Source: a virus. From it: a DNA stretch of 23,722 bases. The translations under genes were made by a program, and so were the position numbers. The stretch's first letter is position 1. Every line of letters starts with the position of its first letter. The stretch covers positions 1 to 23,722 of IMG/VR virus record IMGVR_UViG_3300028654_000069. One strand, written 5' to 3'. Positions 14,120-22,380 of this stretch are shown here, piece by piece. The notes beneath the pieces are model-generated. The model worked only from the letters and a program-made list of their open reading frames with translations. It ran no database searches and was not told the DNA's origin.

Positions 14120-16409
14120 ATGCTGTTTCCCCAACTTGGCCCGCAATATTACGATGAGAAAGATAAAGCTATTCTCTCGCGTATGGAGGCTTTTTATGCA
14201 GAAGCTATTACGATAAACCAATCGTTTTGGTCAGAGGCTAGACATATTGGCCTCTTTAAACTTTCTCTAATTGACTTGGAACCGCTAACGTAAAGTCGAG
14301 CGCGACAGGGCGGAAGGCAATGAAGCCACCGTGAACGACTGAGTGAGAAGGCCCAGAAATGGGATGCGACAGTCTGAGCACTATGGAGACATAGTGAGGG
14401 AGATCCGAAGAGGTTTCCCCGCCTAGCAATAGGTCATAAAAGTAACAGAAAAGGATACTGATACTCGATTCTTTAGCGGAGATCAAACGCTTTGGACGGA
14501 TCTTTATGGTAATCTTCCTGCAAATAGGCGGAGGCAGTTTAACTTCAATCGTATTCGCCGTGTAGTGAATATGATCTCTGGTCATCAGCGCCGTAATCGC
14601 AAGTCTACTATCGTTACTCCTGAAGAGAATGCTAACTCTGAAACAGCAGATCAATTTACTAAAGTCATGCTTTGGTGTAATAACCAAGCTAATGTTCTCG
14701 AGACAATCTCTGATGCATTCCAAGGAGCATTAGTAACCGGAATGAACTTCCTGCACGTCTGGGTAGATTATAGATCAGATCCTGTTTCAGGTAATATTAA
14801 AGTTGACCATGTCCCCTATAATGGCTTTATGGTTGATCCTTACTTTAAGAAAAAGGATATGAGCGATTGCAATTATGTTTGGCGCCGTTCATATGTAACC
14901 AAGCGAGAAGCGATATCTCTTCTTCCTGCGCATACTGATGAGATACTTGGATTAACTTCAAATGATACTGGCTCTGCTCGTGATAGCAAGTTTCAATTTC
15001 AAGTTGAATCTTACAATATGGGCTACAAGAACCTTTTAACGTATGATGAGTTCTATTATAGAGATTATCGCACGCAGAAGATGTTAGTTGATAGTCAAAC
15101 TGGTGAAGTAATGGAATGGCGGTTTGATAATGACGAAGGTCTTCGACTATTCCTTCAACAATATCCAACCATTACATTGATAGAACAGGAAATCCCAACG
15201 GTTAAGCTTGCTATTGTTGTGCAGGGTAAGGTTATGTATCACGGGCCAAATCCCGTAGGCATTGATCAATATCCCTTTGTTCCAGTACTGGCTTATTATG
15301 AGCCCCAGATGCCCTATTTTCCGTTCCGCATACAGGGCGTTGTTCGTGGTTTAAGAGACTCTCAGTACTTATATAATCGTCGTCGTATCATTGAATTAGA
15401 TATCTTAGAGTCTCAAATAAACTCTGGGTATATCTATAAAGAGAACGCGCTGGTTAATCCGAAGGATATATTCTTATCCGGTCAGGGTCGTGGGCTTGCG
15501 CTTAAAGATGAAGCTCAGATGACTGACGTTCAGAAGATTCCATCTCCTGGTATAGATCCTTCAATGATTCAGCTTTCTGAATTGTTAGCGAAAGAAATTC
15601 AGGAGGTTGCGGGTGTTTCTGATGAGTTACTTGGCTTTGATAATAAGGATACGTTGTCTGGTTATCATGCCATGCTTAAGCAATCTGCTTCTACTACTAC
15701 GTTACAAATATTATTTGATCAGCTTGATGGAGCGCAAAAACAATTAGGTAAGATATTCTTGGATGTAATTCAGGCTAACTTCACGCCAGGAAAGATACAG
15801 AACATTCTTGGTGGTGAGCAACCGACTGAAGAATTCTATACTAAGGCTTTTGGTAATTATAATGCGGTTGTTGAAGAAGGTTTAAATACTGCTACTCAGC
15901 GACAAATGCAGTTTGGTCAGATGTTAATGTTGAAAGAAGCGGGCGTTCCTATTACTGCGCAAGATCTTATGGAAGCAGCGACTATTCAGAATAAGAAGAA
16001 GATTGTTGAAAATGCCAAGAGACAAGAAGAGCAAGCAATGCAAGCTCAGCAAATGCAGATGCAAGCAGCTATGGAAGAGCAGCAAGCAAGAACTAACCTT
16101 GCACATGCAAGAGCAGATGCAGATCGTGGCTTGGGCGTAGAACGTTTAAGCAGAGTGCAGGAGAATCAGGCACTTGCGCAAGAGCGTAGAGCTGAGGCTG
16201 AAAAAGATAACGAAATCGCTTTACTCAATTTTGTTAAAGCGCTAAAAGAAATAGAGAGTGTTGATCTAGCTCACCTTGAAAAACTTATCACGCTTAGTAA
16301 CGTGCTCAAATCAGAGCAGCGTGTTGAGAATGTTAAGGATGAAATAGAACAAACGCCACAACAACAGCCTGTTGAAAATAAAACCCCAGCGCAGAGTGTA
16401 TCTGCGTAG
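14120..16409 (+). CDS. P22-type portal protein, 691 aa, interrupted by a group I intron
   Basis: The exons are 14120-14239 and 14454-16409. Joined, residues 32-52 read INQSFWSEA then DTDTRFFSGDQT; this is the conserved N-terminal block of P22-like portals (...FW-x-EA-DxDTRF-x-x-GDQ). Later blocks are RRVVNMISGHQRRNRKSTIV, GMNFLHVWVDY, VDHVPYNGFMVDPYFKK and YPFVPVLAYYEPQM. The C-terminal ~200 residues are Gln-rich coiled coil (QQMQMQAAMEEQQA), the barrel region. Portals form the dodecameric DNA channel at one capsid vertex and dock the terminase. Without intron removal, translation stops 18 codons into the intron. An internal GTG at 14565 merely continues exon 2. The Shine-Dalgarno is AAAAGG. 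Confidence 0.9.
14240..14453 (+). ncRNA. Group I self-splicing intron in the portal gene, 214 nt, no ORF
   Basis: P1 forms between exon GAGGCU (14234-14239) and guide GGCCUC (14249-14254), with the required U-G pair at the splice site. P10 forms between UAUU (14245-14248) and exon GAUA (14454-14457). P3 is CUUUCUC with GAGAAGG; P7 is CGACUG with CAGUCUG; P8 is CCC/GGG; P9 is a CACUAUG/CAUAGUG hairpin. The intron ends in G (...AACAGAAAAG). The ATTGACTTGGAA element and the GGTCATAAAAGTAACAG end are shared with the two capsid introns. Removing it restores the frame and the conserved portal block exactly. Confidence 0.9.
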
Positions 16410-19390: not shown

Positions 19391-19732
19391 ATGAGATTAA
19401 CAGAACAACAATCGGCATTTGCGCGTGACGTTGCGAAACTCATCAATTGGATATTTGATAATGGCTTCTCCGTTACCCTCGGAGAGGCCCTCAGAACGCC
19501 AGAACAAGCTGAGCTCTATGCTAAGGAAGGTAAAGGAATAAAAGATAGCCTGCATTGCAAAAAGCTTGCTATAGACCTTAATCTTTTTGATCATGAAGGT
19601 CATTATCTAAGCGATACCAAATCTTATGAGGAGTTTGGTGTTTTCTGGGAAGGTCTTAACCCACTCAATCGATGGGGTGGAAGATTTACTCGTGCAGATG
19701 GCAATCATTTTCAGCGCAATTTGATGGAATAA
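19391..19732 (+). CDS. M15-family peptidase endolysin, 113 aa
   Basis: A compact M15 (D-Ala-D-Ala carboxypeptidase-like) fold is indicated by SLHCKKLAIDLNLF (His55 and Asp62) and the C-terminal RADGNHFQ (His106), the three zinc ligands of the family. EALRTPEQAELYAKEG is the usual preceding helix. Such enzymes cut peptide cross-links in peptidoglycan, either at lysis or as a virion-borne lysin. No signal peptide is visible, so a holin or pinholin would be needed for release. Its place between scaffold and capsid genes is unusual for a lysis gene and leaves open a virion role. The antisense HNH gene overlaps its last 22 bases. Confidence 0.85.
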   Translation: MRLTEQQSAFARDVAKLINWIFDNGFSVTLGEALRTPEQAELYAKEGKGIKDSLHCKKLAIDLNLFDHEGHYLSDTKSYEEFGVFWEGLNPLNRWGGRFTRADGNHFQRNLME

Positions 19733-20136
19733 GTTTCTTGAGTATGATGGAACTTGCATAACCATGTAACTTTAAGCCAGTTTTCTTTCTCATAGGAAGA
19801 ATGATGTGCTTCTGCGATAGGGTTTTTGCATTCTTTGCATGGTTGTTTAAATAATCTTCCATCCCGAATTGCATTACTCACAGCCGTATGAGCCGATCGT
19901 TTATTTTTATTTAATTGGCGCCATTTAATTATTGCTTTAGCTCTAACGTTTCTGCCATTTTTAACAAGCCATTGTCTATAATTATCTTTACCTTTACTGC
20001 TGTGTCGATATTCACGACATTTAGCGTTGTAGCAAATTTTACATCGAGAAAATGGAATATTAAATCGTTTGTCCCAATTAAATTCTGAAAATGACTTTGT
20101 AATTTTGCATATTGTACATGCTCTTTTTTGTTCCAT
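19711..20136 (-). CDS. Free-standing HNH homing-type endonuclease, 141 aa
   Basis: The N-terminus holds a zinc finger (CTIC at 7-10, CKIC at 32-35). The C-terminal HNH domain shows C100-x-x-C103, AEAHHSSY (His111/His112), WLKVTWLC (Cys127) and HH (130-131), the ββα-metal active site with structural zinc. A basic helix lies between the two. This type of small HNH enzyme is a selfish mobile gene in phages. It runs against all neighbouring genes, overlaps the endolysin's end and has no ORF on its own strand nearby, as expected for a late insertion. It may promote spread of itself or of the nearby capsid introns. Confidence 0.85.
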   Translation of the reverse strand: MEQKRACTICKITKSFSEFNWDKRFNIPFSRCKICYNAKCREYRHSSKGKDNYRQWLVKNGRNVRAKAIIKWRQLNKNKRSAHTAVSNAIRDGRLFKQPCKECKNPIAEAHHSSYEKENWLKVTWLCKFHHTQETYSIKLR

Positions 20137-20385: not shown

Positions 20386-22380
20386 ATGGCAATTACTACT
20401 ACTAGTTCTCTGCCAGCACCCGTTCAACAGTCGTTTAGTTATAAACTGTTAGCGGTGCCGGTGCCAAATATGATCCACAAGATTCCTGCCATGCTTAAAA
20501 ACATGCCAAGAAACGGTGGTACAACTCTACGTATGCGTAGATACAATCCATTAAACGTTGCAATGGTTCCATTAGGAAATTCAGGCGTTACTCCTCCAGC
20601 TCAGAATCTGACTGCTGTGGATATCGATGCTAAGATTTCATTTTACGGTTTTGCATAAGGTGCCGTAAATCTGGTTTTGTCATTTAGACCTACGTAATCT
20701 TGAATGAACAAGTTACGTTACAAAACCAGGATCCCGTTAAATGAAAGCGGGATTAAAACCTACCCTGATTGACTTGGAAGCCTAAGGCGAAAGCTAAGGT
20801 GACAAGGGCCAAGGACAACGATTAAGAATTACGCATAGGATGAAGATGAAATCTAGAATTAAGTTTACGAATATCCTCGAAACAGAGTTGGCGAGCATCA
20901 ATACTTTCTTTGGAAAGTTTGTTGGATCCCAATTTTGCTGTGTAGGTCTTTCTGAATCTTATCATGATTTCGCACTGTCTTCTTTTGATAGTGAGATAAG
21001 GAAGAATTTGTTCACACAGATCAAGCAATCTATCTCCAGTAGCAATCCAACTGAAAACTTCTCGAGTGAACTTCTTAGTGGAAGTAGTACGAGTAGCGGC
21101 AGAATTGGTTCCACTGAAGGTTTGATTCAACCAATCTATGAGAACATAATCCGTATTATCGATCTTCAAAAGACCACGATAATGCTCAGTTACATAGCCA
21201 TCTCCCGATTTTTTGGGGATAAGGCCAATGTAAAAGCATCCTTCTCCATCCACAATGCCTGCCATGTAAGCCAAATCAACTGGTTTATAAGTGGTTGGAA
21301 CGTAATCCTCAGATCGTTTGTAGTATTTTCGTCTTTCTTTCATAGAATCCTCGTTTTAATAGAACAGTATTACTATATAAGTATAAACGAAACAAAACTA
21401 CTTGTCCAGGCTGAACGACTTAGCGGGTGGGACTCTGTATTTACCAGGGTATGCGAAAGTCTGAACTCATATCGAAAGTATGAGAGAGAGATCCGAAGAG
21501 GTTTCTCCGCCAAATGTAAAAATTTGGTCATAAAAGTAACAGAGTGTTTAAACGAATGTGCAGCACGTCTTGGCGTGTCACTTCGTCAAACAGAAGATCA
21601 GCTTACACGCGATATGCTTGCTTCAACAGCAGCATTCATTAACTGTACTGCTGGTGTGAATGGCGATAATCCGACTGAGTTGACTCGTTCAGATGTTGAT
21701 GATGTTGTTCGTGCCCTATTAGGGAATAACGCGTACACCATTCTTGATAACATCGAAGGTGATGACAAGTTCGGTACAGCGCCTGTTCGTGATGCTTATT
21801 TTGCGTTATGTCATACTGACTTAACAAAAGATATGGATAACGTTACTGGGTTCATTCAAAAGAACCAATATCCATCACCTATGAATGCATTGCGTTCAGA
21901 GTGGGGTGCGATTGGGAACTTACGTTTCTTGATTTCATCTATTGGTTCTACTACTGCAGCAGCATCATCCCTAGGACAGACGGTGTACAACATCTTCTGC
22001 GTAGGTATGGAGGCTAAAATGTTAGGTCTCCTTAAATTTCTTCTGATTGACTTGGAAGTCCTACGGGATCACAAGGGGCAAGCGAAAGCAGCCTGAACGA
22101 CTAAGTGAAGAAACCTCGAAAGAGGAAGCGATAGTCTGAACTCTATGGAAACATAGAGAGGAATCTCCGAAGAGGGAATCCCGCCTAGAAATAGGTCATA
22201 AAAGTAACAGAATTGTATGCATGTATAGAGCAAGATGGGTATTCAGCTCAGTTCATATATCGTCCGCCTATTTATGATGGACCACTTGCGTTGAACGCAT
22301 CGGTCGGTTATAAGTTCGCAGAAGTACCTCGGATTCTCAATGACCTATGGGTCTTGAATCTTCGTTGCACATTAGCGTAA
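20386..22380 (+). CDS. N4-gp56-type major capsid protein, 315 aa, interrupted three times
   Basis: The exons are 20386-20649, 20688-20737, 21547-22015 and 22216-22380. Joined, they keep one frame. The joins read KISFYG|TYVILNEQVTLQ, NQDPV|LNECAARLGVSL and VGMEA|YACIEQDGYSA, and the protein ends LNDLWVLNLRCTLA. The YG-x-YV...QDPVL block and the RQTEDQLTRDML block are typical of the N4-gp56 capsid family, which forms the HK97-like icosahedral shell. Exon 2 is only 50 nt. Two interruptions are complete group I introns; the first is a 38-nt insert lacking a core. Unspliced message would stop three codons after exon 1. The Shine-Dalgarno is TAAGGA. Confidence 0.88.
20650..20687 (+). other. 38-nt core-less mini-intron with group I guide sequences
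   Basis: It breaks the capsid frame and carries in-frame stops. The exon end UUUACGGU (20642-20649) pairs perfectly with GCCGUAAA (20662-20669), with U-G at the junction, as in a group I P1. AGGU (20658-20661), directly 5' of that guide, pairs with the first bases of the next exon, ACCU (20688-20691), as in P10. The insert ends in G, as group I introns do. No P3-P8 core fits in 38 nt. CUGGUUUUGU (20671-20680) also pairs with ACAAAACCAG (20720-20729) at the end of exon 2. Confidence 0.75.
20738..21546 (+). ncRNA. Group I self-splicing intron in the capsid gene, 809 nt, carrying an antisense endonuclease gene
   Basis: P1 joins exon AUCCCGU (20731-20737) with guide GCGGGAU (20747-20753), seven pairs with U-G at the splice site. 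P3 is CCUACCC with GGGUGGG; P4 is CUUG/CAAG; P5 is GCCU/AGGU with an inner GC-GAAA-GC. P6 (GGACAA/UUGUCC) is the loop that holds the endonuclease gene. P7 is CGACUU with AAGUCUG, followed by a P9 hairpin and the shared GGTCATAAAAGTAACAG end. The intron ends in G at 21546; P10 may be UUU/AAA. Splicing joins DPV to LNECAARLG. Confidence 0.88.
20822..21343 (-). CDS. LAGLIDADG homing endonuclease, antisense inside the intron, 173 aa
   Basis: The motif LAYMAGIVDGEGCFYIG (about residues 24-40) is a single LAGLIDADG helix with the catalytic acidic residue. One motif implies a homodimer. The body (YRGLLKIDNTDYVLIDWLNQ; FSWIATGDRLLDLCEQILPY; IKRRQCEIMIRFRKTY) fits the family's alpha-beta saddle. The enzyme would cut intronless capsid genes and drive homing of the intron. 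It is encoded on the strand opposite to the capsid gene, with its own Shine-Dalgarno (GAGGA, four bases before the ATG), so it must have its own promoter or come from read-through of antisense transcription. Confidence 0.9.
   Translation of the reverse strand: MKERRKYYKRSEDYVPTTYKPVDLAYMAGIVDGEGCFYIGLIPKKSGDGYVTEHYRGLLKIDNTDYVLIDWLNQTFSGTNSAATRTTSTKKFTREVFSWIATGDRLLDLCEQILPYLTIKRRQCEIMIRFRKTYTAKLGSNKLSKESIDARQLCFEDIRKLNSRFHLHPMRNS
22016..22215 (+). ncRNA. Group I self-splicing intron in the capsid gene, 200 nt, no ORF
   Basis: P1 joins exon GGAGGCU (22009-22015) with guide GGUCUCC (22025-22031), with U-G at the splice site. P3 is UUUCUUC with GAAGAAA; P4 is CUUG/CAAG; P7 is CGACUA with UAGUCUG; P8 is CCUC-GAAA-GAGG; P9 is UCUAUG-GAAA-CAUAGA. 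The shared end GGTCATAAAAGTAACAG is followed by AATTG. Removal joins GMEA to YACIEQDGYS in frame. Confidence 0.9.

Follow-up and report, generated by a model that had tools for sequence, protein, structure and literature searches.

The major capsid protein (MCP) gene of this virus is interrupted by a 38-nt insert that is very probably a group I intron without its core, relying for excision in cis on the core of the neighboring group I intron downstream. Comparative sequence analysis established the junctions of the insert, its P1 helix (P1a), its P10 pairing, a stem between the insert (strand A) and the following mini-exon (strand B), the link of that stem to the next P1, the dependence of the insert on the downstream intron, and the presence of full-length introns at the same site. 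It also appears likely that one natural group I ribozyme splices both its own intron and that of a core-less neighbor in cis, and that this neighbor degenerated from a full-length intron and came to depend on the shared core.

Organization of the Capsid Gene

The window, that is, the whole stretch of DNA analyzed, is a virus record of 23,722 bases that carries terminase, portal (Pfam P22_portal), endolysin-like and MCP (phrog_1357) genes. The MCP gene started at 20386 and its frame broke after codon 88. When the segments 20386–20649, 20688–20737, 21547–22015, and 22216–22380 were joined, they gave a complete MCP of 315 amino acids, which aligned end to end with uninterrupted relatives (best identity, 98%). 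The gene had three interruptions, the 38-nt insert (20650–20687) and two group I introns. Exon 1 (20386–20649, plus strand, as are all parts of the gene) ended with F-Y-GGU at the first 5′ splice site, and the spliced frame matched uninterrupted relatives across this junction. The 50-nt mini-exon (20688–20737; TYVILNEQVTLQNQDP plus GU) encoded residues conserved in the MCP of intron-free relatives. Exon 3 (21547–22015) and exon 4, which held the stop codon (22216–22380), were supported by alignment of the joined frame to intron-free relatives. The second full-length intron (22016–22215; P1, GGAGGCU/GGUCUCC) had neither a stem nor a mini-intron, and it matched RF00028 with 23.5 bits (E = 3e-4) in a local cmscan.

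All sequences in the comparison were metagenomic contigs, and they represented a widespread group of uncultured phages. No cultured phage with an MCP identity above 60% was found, and the host remained unresolved, as the only host-linked evidence came from four short MAG-binned contigs of unrelated taxa. No spliced cDNA was present among the contigs retrieved for the relatives; the uninterrupted genes there were intron-free alleles. MCP genes in this phage group (L105, L116, L148, L174, and L189) can contain several introns of group I, as many as about four, at many different sites. Elsewhere in the window, at ~14269, a core of the same intron family (ATTGACTTGG; P1, AGAGGCT/GGCCTCT) lay upstream of the portal ORF (14565–16409), which suggests that a group I intron interrupts the portal gene as well.

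Splice-Site Elements of the Insert

The insert, which was absent from intron-free relatives, was preceded by U and ended with G (omega-G, 20687). The 5′ strand of P1a (UACGGU, 20644–20649) formed six of six pairs with the internal guide sequence (IGS; GCCGUA, 20662–20667), including a U·G pair at the splice site, and this helix covaried as UAUGGU/GCCAUA. Adjoining the IGS, GGU (20659–20661) was complementary to the first three bases of the mini-exon (ACC, 20688–20690) and made up the P10 strand. Through these two pairings, a single uninterrupted guide would bring exon 1 and the mini-exon into alignment, as it does in group I splicing.

Relatives were collected by pattern scans of IMG/VR that were anchored on P1a or on core patterns. 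They yielded 81 distinct inserts in 81 contigs, 28–59 nt in length and all at the same MCP codon. The P1 pairing and the terminal G were search conditions; the covariation of P1 was seen with a second pattern, and the variable P10 base was not fixed by the search patterns. The group I criterion of a 5′ exon U paired with a G of the IGS was met, with six of six P1 pairs in all detected inserts and covarying UAU and UUC variants. A 3′-terminal G together with a P10 to the 3′ exon was also present. The threonine codons ACC, ACG, ACT, and ACA in the exon faced G, C, A, and T, respectively, in the insert, so that the third P10 base was Watson–Crick to the wobble base in all 81 cases and all four states. 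Permutation gave a mean of 38 matches and a maximum of 52 in 100,000 trials.

The remaining criterion, an own core of P3–P9 with the guanosine site in P7, was not met by the insert. There was no room for a core; the total of 28–59 nt was taken up by P1, the P10 strand and strand A. The conserved 3′ end of the full introns, GGUCAUAAAAGUAACAG, was also missing before omega-G in the inserts. Without this end, the choice of the first omega-G would rest on P10 and proximity, with P10 as the evident contact.

It is scarcely credible that the insert simply stays in the RNA, whether as a broken gene, as an assembly artefact or by programmed ribosome bypassing. The window is a metagenomic contig, and ribosomes are known to bypass a short gap within a gene in T4 gene 60, which provides a precedent. 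However, a separate 39-kb contig (L285) held an insert identical to that of the window, many distinct relatives carried one at the same site, and P1, P10, and the stem covaried. Assembly error and a pseudogene were ruled out by L285 and the relatives. Read-through in frame was possible for none of the 81 inserts, owing to an in-frame stop in 75 and a frame shift in the other six. In a bypassing element of the T4 gene 60 type, the landing codon equals the take-off codon. This was not the case here, where the take-off codon GGU stood against UAG before the resumed frame in the window and against varying codons in relatives, and the insert lengths varied without a frame rule. Bypassing was ruled out by the mismatch of these codons.

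In the inserts with a long P1a loop (L204, L206, L242, L252, L256, L287, and L301), in-frame read-through of the unspliced RNA ended in LAA, FAA, CAA, QAA, or KAA directly before the stop codon. Such ends resemble an ssrA-like degradation tag, but they may reflect a hairpin in the P1a loop.

The Stem between the Insert and the Mini-Exon

The initial annotation, made from the window alone, had proposed a 10-bp pairing between CTGGTTTTGT (20671–20680) and ACAAAACCAG (20720–20729) and a further folding of the mini-exon. The pairing was exact (10/10), and the fold within the mini-exon was located at 20692–20702 (ACGTAATCTTG) and 20709–20718 (CAAGTTACGT). Strand A (CUGGUUUUGU) began 3 nt past P1a, and strand B ended directly at the next P1 (P1b). 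In the window alone, the stem was suggestive but not decisive, as a 10-bp complement within the next 150 nt occurred in 0.6% of the trials with shuffled inserts. The minimum-energy fold of 20636–20760 consisted of P1a, the 10-bp stem with the folded mini-exon, and P1b (z = −5.5), and none of 200 shuffles was as stable.

The relatives added strong compensatory covariation. Double changes were found at seven of the nine pairs of the A:B stem. In 37 distinct sequences from the commonest class, P1a and P10 combined with the stem gave 103 double-change cells vs. 32 in shuffles, and 95.6% of cells were paired vs. at most 47% in slid controls. When inserts (A) were permuted against mini-exons (B), none of 20,000 permutations was as good as the native combination, in the NEQ class and in the DPV class. 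Stem covariation was not established by either of the small classes RLG (4 distinct) and DPt (6 distinct) alone. A chance stem was ruled out by the 81 distinct inserts and their covariation.

The order suggested by the initial annotation (P1a, a P2-like stem enclosing the mini-exon, P1b, and P3) was upheld across the 81 relatives. It had named loss of the stem in relatives keeping the insert as a refutation; instead, 67 of 68 were predicted to form P1a, the stem, and P1b together. The description of the stem as P2-like held, with a change of emphasis: the downstream introns have no P2 (P1 is followed by 4–5 nt and then P3), and the stem is an element added for the first site only. The evolutionary context, namely the full-length introns at the same site and the covariation of P10, was beyond its reach.

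Strand A started at, or within about two nt of, position 3 past P1a. Strand B ended 0–3 nt before the P1 of the next intron at no fewer than five intron positions, and strand A changed accordingly. These positions were after N-E-Q-GU (26-nt mini-exon), after D-P-GU or D-P (~50 nt), after R-L-G-V-S (~85 nt), and elsewhere (L242 and L399). That strand B moves with the downstream intron fits a tether to the core of that intron. Among 113 introns of the family with a locatable P1, strong stems ending directly at P1 were found only at this capsid site.

A stem could nevertheless tether the insert without the same core acting on it. The insert might be excised by group I chemistry with another core working in trans, either in the same transcript or as a free excised intron, while the stem only exposes or protects P1a. 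Several complete introns of the family lie in the same transcripts, for example intron 2 of the window (22016–22215), and engineered group I ribozymes have excised segments in trans (PMC4094466). We regarded this as unlikely, because it predicts neither the tracking of the adjacent P1 by strand B at five or more positions nor the constant presence of an adjacent intron.

Dependence on the Downstream Intron

The downstream intron (20738–21546) met the criterion of a complete group I core, as all listed helices paired fully. They comprised P1b (20730–20753; GAUCCCGU before the splice site, with GCGGGAU, 7/7 pairs), P3 (20759–20765/21425–21431), P4 (20773–20776/20803–20806), P6 (20807–20810/21409–21412), P7 (21417–21421/21457–21461), and P8 (21432–21437/21445–21450). 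The P6a loop contained a homing-endonuclease ORF on the minus strand (20822–21343; phrog_5046, labelled HNH endonuclease, E = 2e-22). A cmscan with Rfam returned no match for this endonuclease-bearing intron (intron 1 of the window) or for the intron of L148, and the miss of the former was probably due to the insertion in P6a. A second endonuclease-like ORF (19711–20136, minus strand; phrog_2340) was free-standing upstream of the MCP gene.

Scanned for without requiring the insert, the intron at the N-E-Q position turned up at 45 loci that also carried the insert, of which 43 came from automatic detection and two (L184 and L330) from reading by eye. At five other loci (L427, L428, L431, L433, and L438) the intron was present but the insert was not, and exon 1 continued directly into the mini-exon. 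The introns at the D-P position were also found without an insert. An insert without a downstream intron was not seen in the sample, in which one contig (L326) ended inside P1b. Since downstream introns occur without the insert and never the reverse, the core-bearing intron is autonomous and the insert dependent, within samples obtained by searching with P1a or core patterns.

Full-Length Introns at the Same Site

In more distant relatives (L387, L390/L396, L393, L398, L407/L411/L415, L417, L420, and L422), the same site was occupied by full-length introns that belonged to this family and shared the IGS. The one in L390 was 216 nt long and met the group I criterion of an RF00028 match (29.3 bits, E = 6e-6, local search) together with a complete core. 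It was followed by a 26-nt mini-exon and then by a complete intron at the N-E-Q site, so that L390/L396 had complete introns at both sites. The states observed were no intron, a full intron at the first site, full introns at both sites, and a core-less plus a full intron. The simplest reading is that the first intron lost its core after that of the neighbor became available; the comparison did not prove this direction.

In the MCP tree, the insert was scattered among intron-free alleles, and well-supported branches forced at least 12 changes. Of the 120 exon-1 bases shown, 118 agreed between L360 and L103, and one difference was the splice-site base (GGU/GGA); their mini-exons differed at 5 of 26 positions, in the region that holds the insert and the intron. 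This pattern is likely a gene-conversion boundary, with the unit arriving together with flanking exon.

Introns of this family (22016–22215 in the window; 4118–4284 in L390) scored only 23–29 bits against RF00028, for which the gathering score is 50. Standard Rfam annotation therefore misses them, and the genes look broken.

Proposed Splicing Pathway

The insert keeps only the 5′ site, the IGS with P1, P10, and omega-G. Before splicing, the RNA is predicted to run from P1a through a 3-nt J1/2 into the P2-like stem, with strand A in the insert and strand B in the mini-exon, then to P1b, which would form a side arm in the place of a P2.1, and on through J2/3 to P3 and the core. P1a would thereby be presented to the single core, with omega-G|ACC aligned by P10. 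Attack by guanosine and ligation would then connect exon 1 with the mini-exon. Strand A would be lost in this step, and with it the stem. P1b, now directly beside P3, could dock, and the downstream intron would remove itself in the ordinary way. The first site would have to react before the second, because downstream-first splicing would remove the only adjacent core. Docking of P1a is plausible, since the geometry is like the P1-J1/2-P2 of ordinary phage introns. That one core performs both reactions, their order, the initiation by guanosine, and the descent of the insert from a full-length intron were inferred without RNA data.

The first 5′ site might instead be spliced directly to the last 3′ site, so that the mini-exon is omitted and a second product results, as is reported to happen naturally between the group I introns around a 23-nt exon in Twort orf142 (described in PMC10136302). 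This was considered very improbable for the capsid gene. The P10 of the first site matched the start of the mini-exon in 81/81 inserts, the mini-exon encodes conserved MCP residues, and leaving out the common mini-exons of 26 and 50 nt would shift the frame. Excision of the insert by the adjacent core, with the mini-exon kept, remained the preferred pathway.

Comparison with Known Systems

Ordinary phage group I introns of the P1-P2-P3 type (T4 td, Twort, and SPO1) share with the insert the U at the 5′ site with a U·G pair in P1, P10, and the 3′-terminal G; they share with the downstream intron P3–P8 and a homing-endonuclease ORF. The td intron has the order P1, short J1/2, and P2, which the fold of the first site resembles. 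Unlike in these introns, the first intron here has no P3–P9, an exon completes the P2-like stem, and the core lies beyond the next exon.

Trans-excision-splicing ribozymes excise fragments of up to 28 nt in vitro (PMC4094466), a length close to the 28–59 nt of the inserts. In these engineered ribozymes and in spliceozymes, a group I core also removes a foreign internal segment via P1 and P10. However, they are laboratory systems acting in trans, whereas the capsid system occurs in nature, would work in cis, and is tethered by a stem that covaries. A spliceozyme-type activity, in which a core removes a segment that does not belong to it, was inferred for the downstream intron from sequence alone.

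In Twort orf142 and Coxiella 23S, complete group I introns flank an exon of 23 or 34 nt, which can be skipped (PMC10136302; PMC11878797). Here too, two group I splice units surround a very short exon and may cooperate. In those cases, both cores are complete and the exon is sometimes lost; in the capsid gene, a core is missing from one of the units, and retention of the exon is predicted. The group III introns of Euglena chloroplasts have no core and are thought to rely on factors from elsewhere (PMC2882425). They are likewise introns cut down to splice-site elements, with catalysis supplied from elsewhere. However, their relationship is to group II, and a protein and/or a trans RNA is presumed to act as helper, whereas the ancestry here is group I and the putative helper is the linked neighbor. 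A search limited to an open-access library turned up no description of a natural group I ribozyme that acts on a second intron without a core.

Biological Implications

Group I introns are taught as self-contained elements, each with its own ribozyme. If the proposed reading is true, the capsid gene offers a natural separation of substrate from catalyst, in which an intron of 28–59 nt keeps the recognition elements and borrows the core of its neighbor, and the linking stem evolves together with synonymous positions of the exon. For annotation, such inserts give capsid genes in viral metagenomes a broken look. The range of states in the relatives makes the loss of self-sufficiency open to study and to rebuilding in vitro. 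The system would parallel, among group I introns, the step that is proposed to have led from self-splicing to spliceosomal introns, and it bears on the origin of a shared splicing apparatus and on how one core chooses between two P1 helices.
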